64,000 nt of DNA, taken from NCBI GenBank assembly GCA_017935945.1, contig JAGBGN010000108.1:1-64000 (forward strand), given 5' to 3'. This document shows, piece after piece, positions 52,868 through 63,952 of this stretch; within the stretch, counting starts at the first letter, position 1; each line of letters starts with the position of its first letter. The position numbers were made by a program, and so were the translations under genes. Under the pieces are notes generated by a model. That model was not told the DNA's origin and searched no databases. It saw only the letters and a list, made by a program, of their open reading frames with translations. Origin of the DNA: Candidatus Methanomethylophilaceae archaeon. GTDB lineage: Archaea; Thermoplasmatota; Thermoplasmata; Methanomassiliicoccales; Methanomethylophilaceae.

Positions 52868-52931
52868 ACTGATTATTTCCTAACTGTCATTGTTTTATAC
52901 GGTGCAATGTATTCACAAATGGGATGGATGC

Positions 52932-53705
52932 ATGCGAGCAGCACTTTACGCCAGGGTCTCGACCGAGGATCAGGCCAAGGAGGGTTTCTCCCTCGATGCT
53001 CAGATCAAAAGATTGGAAGCATACTGCAAGGTACGCGGTTGGGACATAGCTGACAGGTATGTGGATGAAGGTTATTCAGGACGTAACACGGACCGCCCCG
53101 AATACAACCGCATGATGTCGAACATGGAAGGATGGGATCTCATCCTCGTCCTGAAGATGGACCGTATACACAGGAACAGTGTGAACTTCGCCTTGATGAT
53201 GGACGAACTCCGCAACCAGGGAAAGGAGTTCAACTCGATGCAGGACAAATTCGATACCACCACGGCGATGGGCAGGTTTGTGATGGACATCATGCAGCGT
53301 ATCGCCCAGCTCGAGAGCGAACAGATAGGCGAGAGGGTCAGAATCGGAATGGAATACAAGGCCAGAAACGGCCCCGGCCATCTTGGCTCCGGACATCCAT
53401 ACGGTTACGTTTACAACCGCGGAAAGCTCGAGGTGGTCATCGATGAGGCACACACGGTTCGTGCCATCTACAACATGTACATCCGTGGTTCCACCATGGA
53501 TGATATAGCCGGTTTCCTGAACAAGGCAAACATCCCCGCAAAGAAGGGAGGCCAGTGGAATAAGCAGTCCATCAGCAACATCCTCCACAACCCATTGTAT
53601 GCCGGTTTCAGTGAATGGGATGGGATCGTCCGTGAGGGTCAACAGGAAGCCATCATAGACGTTTCGGTCTATGAATCGATCAACGGCCCAATAGAACTCT
53701 CATGA
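52932..53705 (+). CDS. Serine recombinase (resolvase/invertase family), short form 1
   Basis: A 257-residue protein. The resolvase domain opens with MRAALYARVSTEDQAKEGFSLDAQ (catalytic Ser10 in ARVST), then DEGYSGRNTDRPEYNRMM, LKMDRIHRN and AQLESEQIGERVRIGM. A partial recombinase domain follows (GHPYGYVYN, then WNKQSISNILHNPLYAG). Large serine recombinases are 450-700 residues, with a zinc ribbon and coiled coil; here these are missing. The start ATG 52932 fits the fold. The stop overlaps the next recombinase by ATGA. Confidence 0.88.
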   Translation: MRAALYARVSTEDQAKEGFSLDAQIKRLEAYCKVRGWDIADRYVDEGYSGRNTDRPEYNRMMSNMEGWDLILVLKMDRIHRNSVNFALMMDELRNQGKEFNSMQDKFDTTTAMGRFVMDIMQRIAQLESEQIGERVRIGMEYKARNGPGHLGSGHPYGYVYNRGKLEVVIDEAHTVRAIYNMYIRGSTMDDIAGFLNKANIPAKKGGQWNKQSISNILHNPLYAGFSEWDGIVREGQQEAIIDVSVYESINGPIELS

Positions 53706-54550
53706 CCCTTCGTGCAGCCATATACGCAAGGGTATCGACGGATGAACAGGCTGTCGAAGGATACTCCCTGGAAGCACAGAAGGACCTGTTGGAGAGCTAC
53801 TGCATAGCCGAAGGTTGGGACATATCTGCAGTGTACGAAGATGATGGATATTCCGGTAGAAACATCAAAAGACCGGCCTACCGCAAGATGATGTCCGAGA
53901 TGGACCTGTGGGACGTGATCGTCGTCATCAAGATGGATCGTATCCATAGGAACAGTAGGAACTTCATGAACATGATGGAGGCCCTCGAATCGAACAAGAA
54001 GATGTTCGTATCCTCATCCGAAGCCCTGGATACGACCAATGCTCTCGGAAGGTTCGTGGTCGATATGATACAACGTCTTGCCCAGCTCGAGAGCGAACAG
54101 ATCGGGGAGAGGACGTACATCGGCATGAGGGAGAAAGCTGAAACGCTCGAAACATCCAATGCGACCAAGAAGACAATGGGATTCAACCCACCTTTCGGTT
54201 ACAGGTTGGAGAACGGTGCACTCACTATTGATGATGCGGAGTTCCCTGTTGCATGCTCCATCTTCTCCATGTACTCTTCCGGTATGACCATCGACCAGAT
54301 ATGTTACCAGTTGAACCGCGATGCGACATTGACACGTCGTGGGAATCCATGGAACAAGTACAACCTCAGGAACATCCTCCATAATCCTGTGTATGCGGGA
54401 TATATGCGTTGGGAGGAACTGCTCATCAAACACGATGCAAAGATCGTCCTTACACCAGAGGAATATAACGATATCCAATTGAAAATGGCCTCCAAGGTTC
54501 GGGATCCTAGGAAAAGAAATCCAATCCTTTTATCAACATTGGATGAATGA
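53702..54550 (+). CDS. Serine recombinase (resolvase/invertase family), short form 2
   Basis: A 282-residue paralogue of the preceding protein. MTLRAAIYARVSTDEQAVEGYSLEAQ (Ser12), DDGYSGRNIKRPAYRKMM, IKMDRIHRNSRN, AQLESEQIGERTYIGM and WNKYNLRNILHNPVYAG align block for block, but third positions differ, so the duplication is old. It too lacks the zinc ribbon. Coupled translation suggests a heteromeric recombinase. No inverted repeats or att-like site were found next to it. Confidence 0.88.
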   Translation: MTLRAAIYARVSTDEQAVEGYSLEAQKDLLESYCIAEGWDISAVYEDDGYSGRNIKRPAYRKMMSEMDLWDVIVVIKMDRIHRNSRNFMNMMEALESNKKMFVSSSEALDTTNALGRFVVDMIQRLAQLESEQIGERTYIGMREKAETLETSNATKKTMGFNPPFGYRLENGALTIDDAEFPVACSIFSMYSSGMTIDQICYQLNRDATLTRRGNPWNKYNLRNILHNPVYAGYMRWEELLIKHDAKIVLTPEEYNDIQLKMASKVRDPRKRNPILLSTLDE

Positions 54551-56321: not shown

Positions 56322-57830
56322 ATGGATTCTTCCAAACTGACAAGTAAGAACGGAGCTCCGGTGCCAGATTCTCAGAACTCCATGACTGCGGGGCCACGTG
56401 GGCCAATGGTTCTCCAAGATGCTTGGTTCCTGGAGAAGATGTCGCATTTCGATAGGGAGGTCATTCCGGAGAGACGCATGCATGCCAAGGGATCTGGCGC
56501 TTTCGGTAAATTCACCGTGACAGGCGATATAACAAGATTCACATCGGCATCATTGTTCTCAAAGATAGGGAAAGAAACTCCAGTATTGGTCAGATTTTCA
56601 ACTGTTGCTGGGGAGAGGGGAGCAGCTGATGCTGAAAGGGACATACGCGGTTTCGCCATCAAATTCTATACAGACGAGGGGAACTGGGATCTTGTTGGAA
56701 ACAACACTCCGGTGTTCTTCATACGCGACCCACTCAGATTCCCTGATCTGAACCATGCAGTGAAAAGAGATCCGAAGACGAACATGAGGTCCGCTCAGAA
56801 CAATTGGGATTTCTGGACGATGATACCTGAAGCCCTGCATCAAGTCACAATAGTGATGTCAGACCGCGGTATTCCCAAATCGTACAGGCATATGCATGGC
56901 TTCGGTAGCCATACATTCAGTATGATAAACTCTGAAGGTAAGAGAACATGGGTCAAGTACCATCTACGTACACAACAGGGCATAGAGAACATAACTGATG
57001 AACAGGCTGAGGAGATTGTTGGAAGGGACAGGGAGAGTAATCAGAGAGATCTGTTCGAATCAATTGAAAGGGGTGAATTCCCCAGATGGACCATGTACAT
57101 CCAGGTCATGACTGAGGAACAGGCTGATGGTTACCATGAGAACCCCTTCGATATAACAAAGGTATGGCCTCATGGGGAGTTCCCCCTTATCGAAGTAGGG
57201 GTACTCGAACTCAATCGTAATCCTGACAATTACTTCGCACAGATTGAACAAGCCGCTTTCAATCCTACAAACCTTGTTCCTGGATTAGGACTGTCTCCGG
57301 ATAAACTCCTCCAAGGGAGGATCTTCTCATATGGTGATGCACAGAGGTATCGCCTTGGTGTGAATCATAATCTCATTCCTGTTAACGCTCCCATTTGTCC
57401 TGTAAACTCCTATCATCGTGATGGTCTGATGCGTACCGACGACAACTATGGTTCAAGGAAGCACTATGTCCCCAACAGCTATGGGGAATGGGAGGATAAT
57501 GGAGTAAAGGAACCGCCATTGAGGATACAAGGTGATGTGGACCGCTACAATCCATATGAGGACCGTGAAGATGATGTTTTCAAACAGCCTGGAAATCTAT
57601 ATCGTCTGATGACTGAAGATAAGAGGGCCCTTCTGATAGAGAACACAGTACGTAATATGCAAGGTACTACTGACAATCTGAAGTATCGTCATGCAGTACA
57701 TTGCTACAAGGCCGATCCCGATTACGGAGAGCGTTTGATCAATGCTTTCAACCTGGATATGGATTACCTGAAGCATCTCACCACTCTTTCAGAGAAAGAG
57801 CTACAATTCGAGACTAGGAGTAAGGTTTGA
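56322..57830 (+). CDS. katA: Monofunctional haem catalase
   Basis: A 502-residue clade-3-type catalase that splits hydrogen peroxide. Motifs: [20 protein letters not shown] (catalytic His55 region), [43 protein letters not shown] (with the catalytic Asn), and [23 protein letters not shown] (haem-ligand Tyr). Length is normal. Codon use (AGA, CAT, AAT, ATA more frequent) is nearer AT-rich genomes than its neighbours. Probably acquired by transfer; many anaerobic methanogens keep a catalase. Confidence 0.95.
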
Positions 57831-58815
57831 GTAAAATCCAATCGAATTCACCAAATAAACCTCTTATCTGTTGTTTTTTCAGATAAGATGTAAACAACTT
57901 ACAATCACCATTTTTTTCATTGATATCATCTTTTTTTTTATAAAATTTAATTAATAAATGTGATAACTTAATTGAATATAATATTCTTTTTAATCTATAT
58001 TTTAGATAATTATTGGCAGATTTACCTTTATCCTAATTGCATATCATTTTCTATTAGATTATTATGAATTACTGATTATCTAAGATATCTATAAATTATA
58101 AAGCTGGTACCTATATCAAATTAATAAATTCAAATCAATAAAATTTCATAATAATTTGAATATCAATAATATAATTTCTTTGATATTTGCAAATTTAGAT
58201 CTGAAATATAAAATTTTGAATTATTATTCATATTGTATCATTTTTTGAAAAGAATAATGTTATTTCAAATATTTTGTGAATTGTAATTATTTCCCAAAAA
58301 TCGTTTGAAAATGGTGGGTAAAATAAGTCAAAATTGACAAATTAAGTTGACATACGGGAGACCGTCGTGGACAAGAATGTATCATTTTTTGAATGAAAAA
58401 TCGGATTCTACCATATAATTTCAATAAATTTCAATTATGGTAATTACAACCGATAATTTAAACATAATCATCTAAAATTACACAATAATAATTATGTCGT
58501 AATTATTTTATCTGGATACTAAATTAAGTAAATTAATTCATTATTATCATAATATACGAAATTTTTTAAAAAAAATTAAAGAAATAACTATAATCATCAA
58601 TTATATCATATTATATTAAAATTCAAACTTATCTTCTATTATCTACAATAATATTCAATTTATTATAATAACTAAATAAAATATAATTATTATTGATGAT
58701 AAAGATATTAGCTAAAATAATATCAATAAAATAATGATAAAGATATAGAGCAAATAAAGATTGAAATAAATAAAGTTAGTAAAGCTATTAGCTTAATTAA
58801 TTATTATTAAACAAA
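57831..58815. other. 985-bp extremely AT-rich non-coding block
   Basis: No ORF or known feature except CTTATCTG (57863-57870)/CAGATAAG (57880-57887), an 8-bp stem behind the catalase gene that may end its transcript. From about 57890 to 58800 the sequence is mostly A and T, many homopolymer A/T tracts and ATTATT words. The single normal-composition spot is at about 58350-58378 (CATACGGGAGACCGTCGTGG). Such blocks occur at origins, at integration edges and in transferred islands; none of these is proven. No ORB-type origin box seen. Confidence 0.6.
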
Positions 58816-59268
58816 TCAGTAAGGACTGTAGATTCTAATCAATTCACTGTCGATTACATGCTCTATGAAATCTAAGCGGAAACAACTCTGACGATATTGC
58901 TCTAGATCCTTGAGTCTCATGAATTGGGAATTGATATTGTAGAATCTGGTAAGGAAGAAATGTTCTGGTGATGCAGGAGTACCGCCGACGCCGATAGCAA
59001 TGAACGTTGGATCCTCATCAACATCGCTTATCCATTTCCTCATATGGAATGTGGAAGGGAAGATGCTTATGAGTCCATCATCAAGACAATTCTCAGAATA
59101 GTGACAGATCAGGTTGAAACCCCATTCATCAGGATTCATCAGCCTGAAATCAGTTTCAAAGGGATCGGAGATTTCGTTGACATCGAGGATCTCGAAAATA
59201 CAATCCTCGGAGTCGAGGATGTCATGTAAAACATCCTTGAACTCCGATCCCTTGGTGGTAATGATCAT
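58816..59268 (-). CDS. Unknown protein A of four-gene cassette
   Basis: A 150-residue acidic protein, last in the cassette. It alternates strands and loops: NEISDPFETDFRLMNPDEWGFNLICHYSE..., then TFIAIGVGGTPASPEHFFLTRFYNINSQFM. The latter resembles the conserved strand-turn of small restriction-endonuclease-like or immunity-type proteins, but I cannot name a family. It overlaps gene B by 4 bp (ATGA). The stop is at the edge of the AT-rich block. There are no transmembrane or zinc motifs. Confidence 0.55.
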   Translation of the reverse strand: MIITTKGSEFKDVLHDILDSEDCIFEILDVNEISDPFETDFRLMNPDEWGFNLICHYSENCLDDGLISIFPSTFHMRKWISDVDEDPTFIAIGVGGTPASPEHFFLTRFYNINSQFMRLKDLEQYRQSCFRLDFIEHVIDSELIRIYSPY

Positions 59269-60542
59269 TCCTCCGTGAGATAGGCGTACTTCTCGATGAA
59301 TGCATCCTGAATCTTTGCAACGATGTTGTTGTAACCCTCTTCCAGAATCCTCTCATCAGGATTGAGAGAGTTGACATACATGTTCTGATGCTTCGGTTCC
59401 TCAGCGACCTCAAGGATGGAGAGCAATCCGATGAAACCATTCTCAATGGATGCCTTATCAGAATAATCCATCGAGAGTATGACCTTACAGATGTCTACAT
59501 CGACCTTCAGGAAATCGATGACATCCTCACACGCATCCTCATTGAAACGTCCACTCAAGGACATGTCAATGAAGTAATCGATCTTGGAGGACTTCATGTC
59601 CTGAACCTGGGAAAGGATGGAGATCTCATCAACCGTCAAAAGCTCATCACGGAAATCAGACACAGGCTCCACTTCTACAGGTGCTTCTTCCTCCACTGTT
59701 TCAGATTCCACCACGGCATCATCGCATGTGACATCTGGTTTGGATGTGTCCGGCACAGAATCGGAGACTTCCTCTTTTGGGACCATGGCTTCAGAATAAA
59801 CGTCTTCCCTCTCGAAAAGCTGGATAGAGATATCGATACTCGTCTGAACAGAGTAGAGTTTCTTGATTATCTCGGTATCAACCACTGCATTGGATGCTTC
59901 CTCCGCCCTGGATACAATATCGTCTACGATGGACTTCACAGATGACATTGTCTCCATGTAGTATCCCTCGTCATCGGACTGGGAATCGGCGAGCTGATCC
60001 ATTTTGACGAGGATTGGTGTGAGCTCAGCCTCCACCCAGGAGAGATCCACCTTCACAGGTTGAGCTTTCATCTCCTCCATGACCTGTATCTCTCCACGTG
60101 CGAAATCCAACTCCTCGGAAAGCTGCTCTATACGCTCGCGACAAACCTTGAGTTCGGATTTCAGCGATTCGATTGCTTCCTTGGACGAGGAATCATCGAC
60201 TCTACATTCATCTATGGTCCTGTTGATCATGTCCACGATTGCATCCACATCGGGAACGTCTTCCTTGGAAGGTATCTTCATCTTGGAGAACTCCTCCTCA
60301 TCTGAACGATCGGATTCGCTTAATGAATCAAGATAAGCAGGCATATCTATGGAATTGGCGACGACCTTCGCCTCCCTGTCCCTGATCAATGAATCGCAAG
60401 CCTGGACATCATCGCAGAGTGATCCTATCAGGACGATATTATCAGAAGGTGCACCAGGATTCAGTCTGGCTGACAATGCGTATTTGATTATCTCGTTAAG
60501 CTTACGGTCTCTGATTCTGTTCAGAAGAGTAGCATCCCACAT
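59265..60542 (-). CDS. Unknown protein B of four-gene cassette, acidic, coiled coil, with end repeats
   Basis: A 425-residue very acidic protein. Residues 105-160 form a coiled coil (IESLKSELKVCRERIEQLSEELDFARGEIQVMEEM). Residues 255-295 are low-complexity and acidic (SDSVPDTSKPDVTCDD...EEEAPVEVEP). The N-terminal stretch KLNEIIKYALSARLN (14-28) and the C-terminal KIDYFIDMSLSGRFN (320-334) are similar (6 of 15 identical), each followed by an A..D..I...L....D...C pattern, so the ends carry the same helical module. A TATA-like GGATATAAG about 25 nt before its ATG suggests its own leaderless promoter. Family unknown. Confidence 0.55.
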   Translation of the reverse strand: MWDATLLNRIRDRKLNEIIKYALSARLNPGAPSDNIVLIGSLCDDVQACDSLIRDREAKVVANSIDMPAYLDSLSESDRSDEEEFSKMKIPSKEDVPDVDAIVDMINRTIDECRVDDSSSKEAIESLKSELKVCRERIEQLSEELDFARGEIQVMEEMKAQPVKVDLSWVEAELTPILVKMDQLADSQSDDEGYYMETMSSVKSIVDDIVSRAEEASNAVVDTEIIKKLYSVQTSIDISIQLFEREDVYSEAMVPKEEVSDSVPDTSKPDVTCDDAVVESETVEEEAPVEVEPVSDFRDELLTVDEISILSQVQDMKSSKIDYFIDMSLSGRFNEDACEDVIDFLKVDVDICKVILSMDYSDKASIENGFIGLLSILEVAEEPKHQNMYVNSLNPDERILEEGYNNIVAKIQDAFIEKYAYLTEE

Positions 60543-60584
60543 GCCAGGAGTATCTGAATACGGGATATAAGAGATTCCTCATCA

Positions 60585-61367
60585 TCAGAGATACATGATG
60601 TGTTCGGACATCCCCCTGTCCACATCCGAGATGAATCTGCCGATGATGACAGCTATACGTTCGAACCTACCTTTGAGGAAAACGTTGATCTCGGAATCGG
60701 GCGTGTCTAGCTTAGGATGGATGAATACTGTTAGGAATGGTTTGGAATCCAACAACTCCAGATCAGCGATCAGTTTTGAGATTTCCTCCGGTTCTATGGA
60801 TCTTCCGGAATAAACACGGAGTATCATTCCGCATTCATCCATCATGAGGTCGCAATACTCCATTGCACGGTCCAAAACCTCCTTCTCCTCCTTACTGGTG
60901 AGTTCTATGTGGAAGCGCTTGGAGCTGAGGTAGGATCTGAACTTCTGATACTCTATGGATCTATGGTAATTGACGGGATCGTTTCCATCGAGGATGCTGT
61001 CCGCAATAACAGTAGCTGCATCCATGCAATCATAGTATCTCTTGAAGTGATCGAATGCTTCCTTGAACAATATCTCATCGTACCGAATATCTTCGCCGAA
61101 CATGGATATGTAGAAATCATAGATTCCGTCTGGAATATCCATAAGATCGTCCTTCAGGGTTTCTAGATCCAAACGGATGCGGTACAGCTCATTGTTGTAT
61201 ATTCTGAGCAATGCGTTGCAACGGTTTATGTCACGAATCAATTTCTCAGTCAGAATGTTCTTCTTTCCCAAACCGATGGAGTCCTCTACAGAGAGTATGG
61301 CTAGTTCACATCCCTTACGAGACATGACCCTTTTTAGGACCTCCTTCTCGGCGGGATTGATTATCAC
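60585..61367 (-). CDS. Unknown protein C of four-gene cassette
   Basis: A 260-residue mostly helical protein (MIINPAEKEVLKRVMSRKGCELAIL... ELYRIRLDLETLKDDLMDIPDGIYDFYISMFGED), ending in a mixed region (KPFLTVFIHPKLDTPDSEINVFLKG). No motif is recognised, and no membrane helix. ATG overlaps the stop of gene D (ATGA). It is 42 bp from gene B. Charged residues and length are in keeping with a structural or sensor part. Confidence 0.5.
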   Translation of the reverse strand: MIINPAEKEVLKRVMSRKGCELAILSVEDSIGLGKKNILTEKLIRDINRCNALLRIYNNELYRIRLDLETLKDDLMDIPDGIYDFYISMFGEDIRYDEILFKEAFDHFKRYYDCMDAATVIADSILDGNDPVNYHRSIEYQKFRSYLSSKRFHIELTSKEEKEVLDRAMEYCDLMMDECGMILRVYSGRSIEPEEISKLIADLELLDSKPFLTVFIHPKLDTPDSEINVFLKGRFERIAVIIGRFISDVDRGMSEHIMYL

Positions 61368-61756
61368 TTCTTCACCCCGAGTTGTCTACGTATCGAATCC
61401 TTCAACGAGACCAAAGCCTTGTGTGTGATCTTCTCATCCTCTCTGGAATCAGCTTCGACCTCCCTGAGGTAGATGGCATACATCCGGGGAGACACCTCAC
61501 TCACGCCAGTAAGGAGAAGCAGATCCTCCTCCATACCATTGTCCAACTCATCGATACGTCCATCGTAATACAGAGATGCCATGCGATAGTATCTGTAATC
61601 CATATCGACATAATCAGCTAATTCCATGTACTGCTCGTATTTTTCAGGGTTCTCCAAGGCACGTAGGGAGAAGAACTCCCTTTCCATCATCTTCCTGTCC
61701 ATGCCTTTTCTGAACATTTCCGCCAAAGTGGCACCATCTATATTCCTTTTGTTCAT
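61364..61756 (-). CDS. Unknown protein D of four-gene cassette
   Basis: A 130-residue helical protein (LAEMFRKGMDRKMMEREFFSLRALENPEKYEQYMELADYVDMDYRYYRMASLYYDGRIDELDNGMEEDLLLL). It is rich in Met, Tyr, Arg and Glu, with no recognised domain; the Y-x2-Y and acidic helices recall TPR-type or adaptor proteins, weakly. It is transcribed first; TTAATATTAATTTA (about 61790-61803) may be the promoter. Overlaps gene C by 4 bp. Confidence 0.5.
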   Translation of the reverse strand: MNKRNIDGATLAEMFRKGMDRKMMEREFFSLRALENPEKYEQYMELADYVDMDYRYYRMASLYYDGRIDELDNGMEEDLLLLTGVSEVSPRMYAIYLREVEADSREDEKITHKALVSLKDSIRRQLGVKK

Positions 61757-61903: not shown

Positions 61904-62554
61904 ATGGGTGGATCATATAAACTCATCATCTTCGACCTCGATGGTACCGTTTCAGATAGTTTCTCCGGAATCCTTCATTGTTTCAAGAGAATGTTGGAAC
62001 ATTACAACGTCGATTATCCCGGTGATGATGAGATGGGTGCTTACCTTCATGGATCCGTGCACGATCACATCCGCAAGCTCCTGAATACTGATGATAAGGG
62101 TGTCTCAGATGCACTTGAGATATACCGTGATTACTACATCTCAGAGGGCGAGGCCATGTGCAAACCATTCGATGGTGCCGAAGATGTCTTCAGGGAACTC
62201 AAGAAGGCAGGATATCTGTTGGGAGTGGCAACCATGAAGATCCACAACTATGCAGTTATGCAGTTGGAAAACTGGGGATTCTTAGATTACTTCGACACTG
62301 TACATGGTGCTGACCCCAATGGTATGATGGATAAGTCTGATCTAATACAGATGTGTCTGAAAGATATCAATGTTGAACCCGAGGATGCACTGATGATCGG
62401 GGACAGTGTCGATGACCTCCTCAACGCACGCAAGGCATCGGTCCCATTCCTTGCAGCCTCATATGGTTCCAACCTTTCCCCATCCATCTGTGAGGACAAT
62501 GGTATCGACTATGTGAGATCCATACGCGACGTAGTCACATTTATTGTCGGTTAA
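61904..62554 (+). CDS. HAD-superfamily phosphatase (phosphoglycolate phosphatase-like)
   Basis: A 216-residue HAD hydrolase. FDLDGTVSDS (10-19) is motif I with the nucleophile Asp, VATMKIHN is motif II (Thr), DKSDLIQ has the Lys of motif III and MIGDSVDDLLNARKA is motif IV. The helical cap follows motif I, typical of PGP/beta-PGM-like members. Substrate open. Its stop lies in a 20-bp palindrome shared with the convergent protease gene. Confidence 0.9.
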   Translation: MGGSYKLIIFDLDGTVSDSFSGILHCFKRMLEHYNVDYPGDDEMGAYLHGSVHDHIRKLLNTDDKGVSDALEIYRDYYISEGEAMCKPFDGAEDVFRELKKAGYLLGVATMKIHNYAVMQLENWGFLDYFDTVHGADPNGMMDKSDLIQMCLKDINVEPEDALMIGDSVDDLLNARKASVPFLAASYGSNLSPSICEDNGIDYVRSIRDVVTFIVG

Positions 62555-62562
62555 CCGACAAT
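62543..62562. terminator. 20-bp perfect palindrome holding both stop codons
   Basis: ATTGTCGG-TTAA-CCGACAAT reads the same on both strands. The plus-strand TAA (62552-62554) of the HAD gene and the minus-strand TAA (62553-62551) of the protease gene share its centre. It would form the same hairpin in both transcripts, so it may end or stabilise both. Confidence 0.6.
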
Positions 62563-63429
62563 CCTGTAACCTGTCTCATCGCCCTCGAGGGTGTAACGTA
62601 CCCCCCTTCCATCGAGGAGTTGGATTATAGTGGAAGCGTGCAATCCGATTCCAACATTCAGGAATTGATTCTCCACAACATTCTGTCCCTGATATTCCAC
62701 CACGGGACGGAATCCCAGTGGCATATGATGGGTCTTCGTCTGCATTGCATAGAGCCTACCCTCCTTGTCGAAAATAGGACCACCGGACTGACCACGCATG
62801 CCAGGTGTTGAAGTCTCGACCTCCACCCAGTCATAGTTACCGTTCTTGCATCTGCCATGTTTGATGGTACGGGTATGGATCCCCTCATTGGGGAACAGGG
62901 CCTCCTTGGCTGGGATCTTGGAAATCCTGAATGAATTCAGGTTGGAATCCCAGGAAGGGGACACATCCACGAACGGGTAACCGAGGCGGCAGAGGGATGT
63001 TCCAGGCCTTGCCTTGGAGGGATCGATGATCACGGGATAATCATGGACCCACGAGGGATTGAATGGTTCGAGTTTTCCTACGGCTATGTCCAACTGTCTG
63101 TCCACATAGGCTTGGACGAGATGGACGCCATCCCAACCCCACCAGAACGAATGGTTCACTATCGACTTCTCATCCGGTTTGATGATGTGGTCCGGTTCAC
63201 CTGCTGCAACGCGCGATGCATTGAGTTCCTCGATCTCCTTCATCTTGTTGGTATCGGTCTGATACTTCGTGTAATGGTCGAACACATGACCCGCGGTCAT
63301 GATCCAACCGTCTTCGTTCAACACGATGAAGGTGGCGACATCCGAGAATACGGTACCGTCATGCATGCGGATGGATGTGACGACGGGACGGGTGTAGCTG
63401 GAGACCTTCTGGAACGCATCGGAGAACAT
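62551..63429 (-). CDS. Trypsin-like serine protease
   Basis: A 292-residue protein with a chymotrypsin/DegP-like catalytic triad: His in GWIMTAGHVFDH (about 49), Asp in RQLDIAVGKL (about 114) and Ser in GMRGQSGGPIFD (about 221). No signal peptide or PDZ domain is seen, so it is likely cytoplasmic. Insertions between His and Asp (PDEKSIVNHSFWWGWDG) are unusual. TATA-like TATAAAAA lies 25 nt before the ATG, so leaderless; codons upstream to 63621 are excluded. Confidence 0.85.
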   Translation of the reverse strand: MFSDAFQKVSSYTRPVVTSIRMHDGTVFSDVATFIVLNEDGWIMTAGHVFDHYTKYQTDTNKMKEIEELNASRVAAGEPDHIIKPDEKSIVNHSFWWGWDGVHLVQAYVDRQLDIAVGKLEPFNPSWVHDYPVIIDPSKARPGTSLCRLGYPFVDVSPSWDSNLNSFRISKIPAKEALFPNEGIHTRTIKHGRCKNGNYDWVEVETSTPGMRGQSGGPIFDKEGRLYAMQTKTHHMPLGFRPVVEYQGQNVVENQFLNVGIGLHASTIIQLLDGRGVRYTLEGDETGYRIVG

Positions 63430-63523
63430 GCTGCGTAATCTGGAATCCCATATAAAAACTGAAGATGTCTGCTGTCGGGCAGCACACAGAGAACCTTTAT
63501 AGACAACCGTCATCCGGAACTTC

Positions 63524-63952
63524 ATGTTGAGCAAGGAGGTCCAGTACAGGATTTTCGCCGGTACCAAGAAGGAGGATTTCACCGGATGGGAGAAGGTCAC
63601 CGTCGAGGAATCAGAATCCATCGATTACTGGTCACTCGATATCGGCAACGGTTACACCCTGGACAGGGTCACCAAGAAGATCCGTGGACTCTTTGGTTCC
63701 CGCAAGGTCCGTTTCCTCAGCATCCGTATGGACCGTACCGTGGAGGATCCTGAAGGGGATTACAGGGATTTCAACTGCAACATGATATTCGACGTCGAGA
63801 TAAGTGTCGATACCGATTCAATAAAATTCAAGGATAAGCACAACTCGTTCGTACTGCTGTCCAGAGAACCAATCGACTGGGAGGAGTTCTCGAAGGGTCC
63901 GGTAACATCTGATGAGGACACTGAGAACAACTGGTCCAGCTTCTATTCCTGA
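63524..63952 (+). CDS. Unknown protein
   Basis: A 142-residue protein, charged and strand-rich (VQYRIFAGTKKEDFTGWEKVTVEESESIDYW, then KVRFLSIRMDRTVEDPEGDYRDFNCNMIFDVEI). No family recognised. The ATG is about 26 nt from CTTTATA (63495-63501). It is divergent from the trypsin-like protease, only 95 bp between start codons, so the two may share regulation. Confidence 0.55.
   Translation: MLSKEVQYRIFAGTKKEDFTGWEKVTVEESESIDYWSLDIGNGYTLDRVTKKIRGLFGSRKVRFLSIRMDRTVEDPEGDYRDFNCNMIFDVEISVDTDSIKFKDKHNSFVLLSREPIDWEEFSKGPVTSDEDTENNWSSFYS

Follow-up and report, generated by a model that had tools for sequence, protein, structure and literature searches.

What does a compact set of four genes do when none of its products belongs to a recognised family, and why does it lie beside a block of very AT-rich DNA? 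This question is raised by a 64,000-nucleotide stretch from Candidatus Methanomethylophilaceae archaeon (hereafter the window: positions 1 to 64,000 of JAGBGN010000108.1, forward strand, which is contig C25 of a 1.57 Mb genome in 136 contigs), in which four minus-strand genes, here named D, C, B and A, occupy positions 58816-61756. A first-pass annotation, made from the sequence alone, had placed them in the setting of accessory modules involved in defence, stress or secretion-like functions. We compared the locus across the genus, taken as GTDB UBA71 of the family Methanomethylophilaceae, using 31 genomes of UBA71 and 71 genomes from other genera of the family. The cassette is very probably a vertically inherited UBA71 operon of proteins that share a helical module, inserted between a family-wide trypsin-like protease gene and a conserved 28-bp element near the replication terminus. 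The best overall explanation of its role, to which we assign a probability somewhat below one half (about 0.45), is that these proteins are adaptors or scaffolds of the terminus-proximal trypsin locus that have expanded in UBA71.

Coding status, distribution and inheritance of the cassette

Gene D (61364-61756) encodes 130 residues, C (60585-61367) 260, B (59265-60542) 425 and A (58816-59268) 150, all as first annotated, and the single 42-bp gap between them lies at 60543-60584, between C and B. Both four-nucleotide overlaps had been read as ATGA. Direct reading of the sequence confirmed this for B/A (59265-59268), whereas the D/C overlap (61364-61367) reads GTGA, C having a GTG start codon; B begins with MWDA. 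The D/C overlap is also kept in five orthologous loci. Orthologues of the cassette genes preserve frame and length at 21-55% identity; thus, the four open reading frames are real protein-coding genes, and chance reading frames could be ruled out.

B was identified in 26 of the 31 UBA71 genomes, including 16 of the 17 high-quality ones, and C in 22, and neither occurred in any of the 71 genomes from other genera. D was present in 19 UBA71 genomes, and outside the genus, in a sample of the class, it gave weak matches at most. A scan of genome contigs produced matches with the A profile and no match with B alone. Among the UBA71 genomes with D or C, most have the cassette at one chromosomal position, after the genes for YgiQ, Sel1 proteins, w13, trypsin and a HAD-family protein and before an SDR gene. 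Allowing for rearrangements, the gene order of the genus is w18 (YgiQ)-Sel1-Sel1-w13-w12-T-trypsin-HAD-D-C(-B-A)-SDR-w3-recombinase pair-thermosome. Co-occurrence and conserved gene order in relatives were found, as had been expected of a genuine multi-protein system, and none of the four proteins showed homology to separate housekeeping families. The suggestion of an accessory module at a variable locus did not hold: the fixed synteny and vertical inheritance remove the reading as a mobile accessory island, and the cassette is not a mobile defence island. Likewise, the recombinases taken as a sign of such a setting, a tandem pair of short serine recombinases on the plus strand (52890-54550), are syntenic in the genus and belong to the same neighbourhood by vertical conservation.

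Several neighbours lie outside the cassette itself. The trypsin-like serine protease gene (62551-63621, minus strand, likely start at 63429) is a neighbour of the 28-bp element family-wide. The HAD-family phosphatase gene (61904-62554, plus strand) is syntenic and divergent from D, and gene T (63524-63952, plus strand), encoding a 142-residue protein of no recognised family, is syntenic in the genus and divergent from the trypsin gene. In clade 2, TPR proteins with DUF4241/DUF4261 and a secreted-looking beta-rich protein (c11) adjoin D-C-B (L030:2-8272, L044 and L040). In clade 1 (L105-L107 and L109), B lies directly 3' of a TBP gene and a gene for a large basic protein, an arrangement confirmed by Pfam in L105 only; the TBP neighbourhood offered no functional clue.

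A shared helical module and a predicted pseudo-nuclease

The description of the four proteins as unrecognised was borne out: A-D had no credible family in Pfam, NCBIfam or PADLOC, A, C and D had none in PHROGs, and the library matches to B were coiled-coil noise. B had also been credited with a coiled coil and matching end modules; this proved correct, and the likeness reaches C and D too. The first profile search that linked B, C and D was iterated and mixed the families, so the comparison was repeated with unmixed profiles. A profile of the C-terminal module of B matched the N-terminal module of B, C, D and w13-type proteins weakly, several single matches having E-values above 0.1, and a C profile directly matched the modules of B and D (E-values 1e-7 to 4e-5). 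Profile-profile comparison with hhalign gave probabilities of 94% for the N-terminal part of C (C-N) against the N-terminal module of B (B-N), 91-93% for C-N against the C-terminal module of B (B-C), 93-95% for B-N against B-C and 61-75% for D against C-N. When w13 proteins from other genera were added, w13 reached 91% with D, 91% with C-N and 87% with B-C, compared with at most 0.4% for unrelated neighbouring proteins. Taken together, the profile and profile-profile matches indicate that one module of about 100 residues is common to D, C-N, both ends of B and w13.

D consists of one such module, for which AlphaFold predicted a four-helix fold in which the shorter helices come after two long ones (mean pLDDT 88). 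Conserved residues of the module include K22, D53, Y96 and E108. C carries an N-terminal module (approximately 61014-61367) and an unrelated helical C-terminal half; the idea that this half is a further copy was rejected by both profile and profile-profile comparison. In B, profile matches and hhalign placed the two modules at 60201-60542 and 59277-59651, on either side of an acidic linker. The linker differs between clades, forming a coiled coil in clade 2 and being rich in Pro and Glu in clade 1, and each clade keeps the two end modules. A search of the module profiles against PDB sequences yielded nothing useful. A w13-like protein is the most likely ancestor from which duplication gave rise to D, C and B, because their modules are homologous to w13, which already stands beside trypsin in other genera. 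All four proteins of the cassette are acidic, the net charge of B reaching -58 to -75 in clade 2, a property that disfavours DNA binding and fits protein scaffolding.

A further feature of gene C is an in-frame TAG codon at two recurrent alignment columns in six clade-1 species (L026, L028, L029, L038, L039 and L042). Homology continues beyond this codon, with conserved sequence on both sides. Among the homologue-confirmed gene ends at these loci, TGA was by far the commonest stop and TAA made up the rest, with TAG as a possible stop once; this agrees with the low use of TAG stops described in 'Ca. M. alvus' (PMC4153887). PylS was identified in all 31 genomes of the genus, 27 of them over the family cut-off. 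The in-frame TAG together with the ubiquity of PylS suggests pyrrolysine in C, which would then be a candidate for a pyrrolysine-containing protein that is not part of methylamine metabolism.

The absence of any known catalytic motif, as first noted, holds for B, C and D. In A, the motif of a predicted nuclease fold is eroded. Its AlphaFold model (pLDDT 83) shows the alpha-beta-beta-beta-alpha-beta core of the PD-(D/E)XK superfamily. The archaeal Holliday junction resolvase Hjc, EcoRV and SPARDA nucleases made up nearly all of its top 20 PDB neighbours in Foldseek, with a best E-value of 2e-3 and none passing 1e-3; the A profile found nothing useful among PDB sequences. A resembles these nucleases in predicted fold order and in the motif-I aspartate (D40), which is kept. 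It differs from them in its strong acidity, in a new invariant TF-x-[MK]-RKW motif and in the loss of E-x-K, which is replaced by [ILV]-C-[YHFQ], with the Cys invariant, in all nine UBA71 A proteins. Distant relatives, one in the genus (G054) and the others, with weak matches, in other genera, have a catalytic position occupied by E-C-K or E-A-K, and E-x-K is intact in those at L086, L088, L091 and L092; a relative from G243 has the E-C-K form. Since both E-x-K residues are lost in all nine proteins, A is predicted to be a pseudo-nuclease, that is, a fold relative of the PD-(D/E)XK superfamily that we do not class as an active nuclease.

The AT-rich spacer and the 28-bp element

The AT-rich block noted at first was present: 300-bp windows below 30% GC span approximately 57726-58975, with a minimum of 14% GC, and no other run of this kind exists in the window. 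The block corresponds to a convergent spacer (57831-58815) that follows the cassette on its 3' side, is kept genus-wide and was found in 13 of the 13 loci with a contiguous, measurable gap to the SDR gene. In the window, a catalase gene (56322-57830) stands between A and SDR; none of the other loci compared has it there, and it is likely a recent gain. Within the spacer lies one conserved element of 28 bp (58345-58372, minus strand; consensus GTCAACGACGGTCTCCCGAATATCAACT), whose chance expectation is zero. In 20 UBA71 genomes it was identified next to the cassette, relative to which its orientation never varies, and 18 columns of the 20-sequence alignment are invariant, with poorly conserved flanks. 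As far as was searched, it is absent from the short contigs of the deep-branching group and from the vicinity of the A-B pair of G057. Because the spacer recurs downstream of the cassette and holds a conserved element, the block does not point to foreign DNA, and a foreign AT-rich insertion could be ruled out. No Rfam RNA was detected in the block, and the element showed no RNA covariation, no unusual fold energy, no strong dyad (at best 7 of 14 positions) and no exact match in viral contigs.

Beyond the genus, approximately 80 kb around the chromosome midpoint was taken from five complete genomes, the midpoint fractions assuming that the contig start is the origin. The element occurred in three of them, with 26 of 28 positions matching in G008, 23 in G014 and 22 in G011, and the best score in 1.56 Mb of randomly sampled sequence from three genomes was 20/28, seen once. 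All three sites (L203:18748, L215:5732 and L205:12703) are AT-rich, intergenic and near the midpoint. A 21/28 match in G012 lies inside a GC-rich open reading frame and was treated as doubtful, and no element was found in the midpoint region (approximately 80 kb) of G049. In all three genomes with the element, a trypsin gene adjoins it, and the order YgiQ-Sel1-Sel1-w13-trypsin-element equals that of UBA71 minus D-C-B-A. The serine recombinase pair, considered as a possible partner of the element, was not found in the examined loci around these elements. The same order without D-C-B-A indicates that the locus is older than UBA71, in which D-C-B-A sits between trypsin and the element.

The position of the element relative to the origin was measured in three complete genomes of the genus. 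Its distance from the best orc1/cdc6 gene was 0.489 (G050), 0.477 (G053) and 0.498 (G055) of the chromosome; these genomes also carry a second, lower-scoring orc1/cdc6, and a single origin was assumed. It should be noted that the three genomes are syntenic and do not represent three independent events; a single locus would lie so near the antipode by chance roughly once in 20. Sampled GC skew was positive before the midpoint and negative after it, clearly so in G053. In a change-point test based on words learned only on the distal parts of the other genomes, the skew switch in G055 fell at 819-829 kb, with the element at 828 kb. In G050 it fell at 794 kb, with the element at 780 kb, where the log-likelihood was 11 units worse. 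Thus, the switch lies 0-14 kb from the element in two of the three genomes. G053 was not supportive, its switch being placed at 1000 kb and its element at 901 kb (62 units worse). On these grounds, the element is a candidate terminus site, found in at least three genera and near-antipodal to orc1/cdc6 where measured.

Such a site invites comparison with the archaeal Xer/dif system (PMC2958812, PMC8371274), whose sites the element resembles in its length of 28 bp, its AT-rich intergenic setting, and its location approximately opposite the origin and near a skew switch. In the 1.56 Mb sampled from three genomes, no second copy was found. Unlike an archaeal dif site, it has no two 11-bp inverted repeats around 6 bp, and no partner recombinase was identified for it. 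As an inverted repeat is the criterion for archaeal dif sites (PMC8371274), we do not call the element dif.

Function of the cassette and competing explanations

A tentative mechanism can be proposed in which the modules act as protein-protein interaction units and the resulting complex works for the neighbouring protease. B would tether through its two terminal modules, C and D would cap or bridge, and A would be a non-cutting partner, whereas the element would be a separate, older feature fixing the neighbourhood near the replication terminus. The four-nucleotide overlaps would couple the output of D with that of C and of B with that of A. The complex would then be an adaptor or scaffold holding the neighbouring cytosolic trypsin-like protease or its substrates.

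Some observations weigh against this adaptor explanation. The link between cassette and protease may be positional only, reflecting adjacency at a conserved locus: trypsin and w13 also occur outside UBA71, unaccompanied by D, C or B, trypsin is relocated in G050, and clade-1 B sits elsewhere, beside the TBP gene. A is restricted to 9 of the 31 genus genomes, plus the one distant homologue in G054. As for the module itself, the pairing of w13 with B-N alone was weak (15%), and Foldseek found no structural relative of it in PDB or BFVD. Sel1-repeat proteins, described in Methanomassiliicoccales (PMC4153887), occur near the locus both in UBA71 and in those other genera that were examined, but Sel1 repeats are absent from all four cassette proteins.

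A conflict or defence system, in which homotypic adaptor modules link a trypsin-like effector to a sensor and A is a former nuclease effector, appears unlikely. Bacterial conflict systems with effector-associated or death-like adaptors (PMC7159879, PMC8195603) combine trypsin-like proteases with homotypic modules, and the cassette likewise has small modules repeated in neighbouring proteins near such a protease. It differs from those systems in showing no detectable homology, in its fixed locus and in its confinement to one genus (plus w13 in the family); a Pfam scan of the cassette and its neighbours revealed no NTPase or sensor gene. The module matched no described adaptor domain in Pfam, NCBIfam or PADLOC and no fold in Foldseek. 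Nuclease-trypsin pairs also recur in antiviral systems (PMC12799240), and here too a nuclease-fold gene lies near a trypsin-like protease; there, however, the nuclease is a metallo-beta-lactamase-type proenzyme, whereas A has a degenerate PD-(D/E)XK fold without catalytic residues and is not adjacent to trypsin. Also in favour of a conflict role, C is highly divergent (21-30% identity) beside a better conserved trypsin (43-61%), and TPR proteins with DUF4241/DUF4261 are present at some clade-2 loci. Against it stand the fixed position and genus-wide vertical inheritance, the lack of matches to D in phage or plasmid collections and to A in phages or viral contigs, and the lack of any match to PADLOC defence families above chance coiled-coil scores.

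It is rather improbable that the cassette proteins form a chromosome-terminus apparatus that, together with the 28-bp element, terminates replication, segregates chromosomes or resolves dimers. The cassette does lie immediately 5' of the element across the genus, and the element's near-antipodal position and the nearby skew switch in two of three genomes are consistent with such a role. However, there are other genera in which the element is found without any of D, C, B and A, the cassette proteins are all acidic, D and B can be located elsewhere, and in G053 the inferred switch is 100 kb away. There is also a small chance that the element is a non-canonical terminus-acting site (for dimer resolution, fork arrest or segregation) and that the trypsin-module locus, which has grown in UBA71 to include D-C-B-A, is functionally tied to termination or division.

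It is also rather improbable that A still cuts by means of a rearranged active site, for example with the invariant R77/K78 in place of the lost lysine, so that the operon would cut DNA or RNA. Residues are known to migrate within the PD-(D/E)XK superfamily, and A retains many invariant polar residues (E26, D29, N31, D35, E38, D40, D47, R77, K78, D82 and R108). However, all nine A proteins have a hydrophobic residue at the E position and an aromatic residue, His or Gln at the K position, the charge of A is strongly negative, and intermediates in related genera (D-C-L or D-C-I in genus g9, V-C-R in G021) suggest decay. Finally, a recently acquired mobile island, to which the AT-rich block, the nearby serine recombinases and the catalase gene unique to this genome among the compared loci had lent some colour, is largely refuted by genus-wide synteny that includes the recombinases and by the conserved spacer with its conserved element. 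Both recombinases carry the catalytic YARVST serine motif, lie a few kb from the element and are possibly domesticated.

The shared module defines a domain family that the searched libraries lack and that has multiplied at a single locus in an uncultured genus of gut methanogens. The predicted pseudo-nuclease A comes with intact relatives available for comparison, and an apparently featureless AT-rich block has yielded a testable 28-bp candidate terminus site. To our knowledge, neither the ending of replication nor the resolution of chromosome dimers has been described in Methanomassiliicoccales, and the element makes both directly testable in this order.

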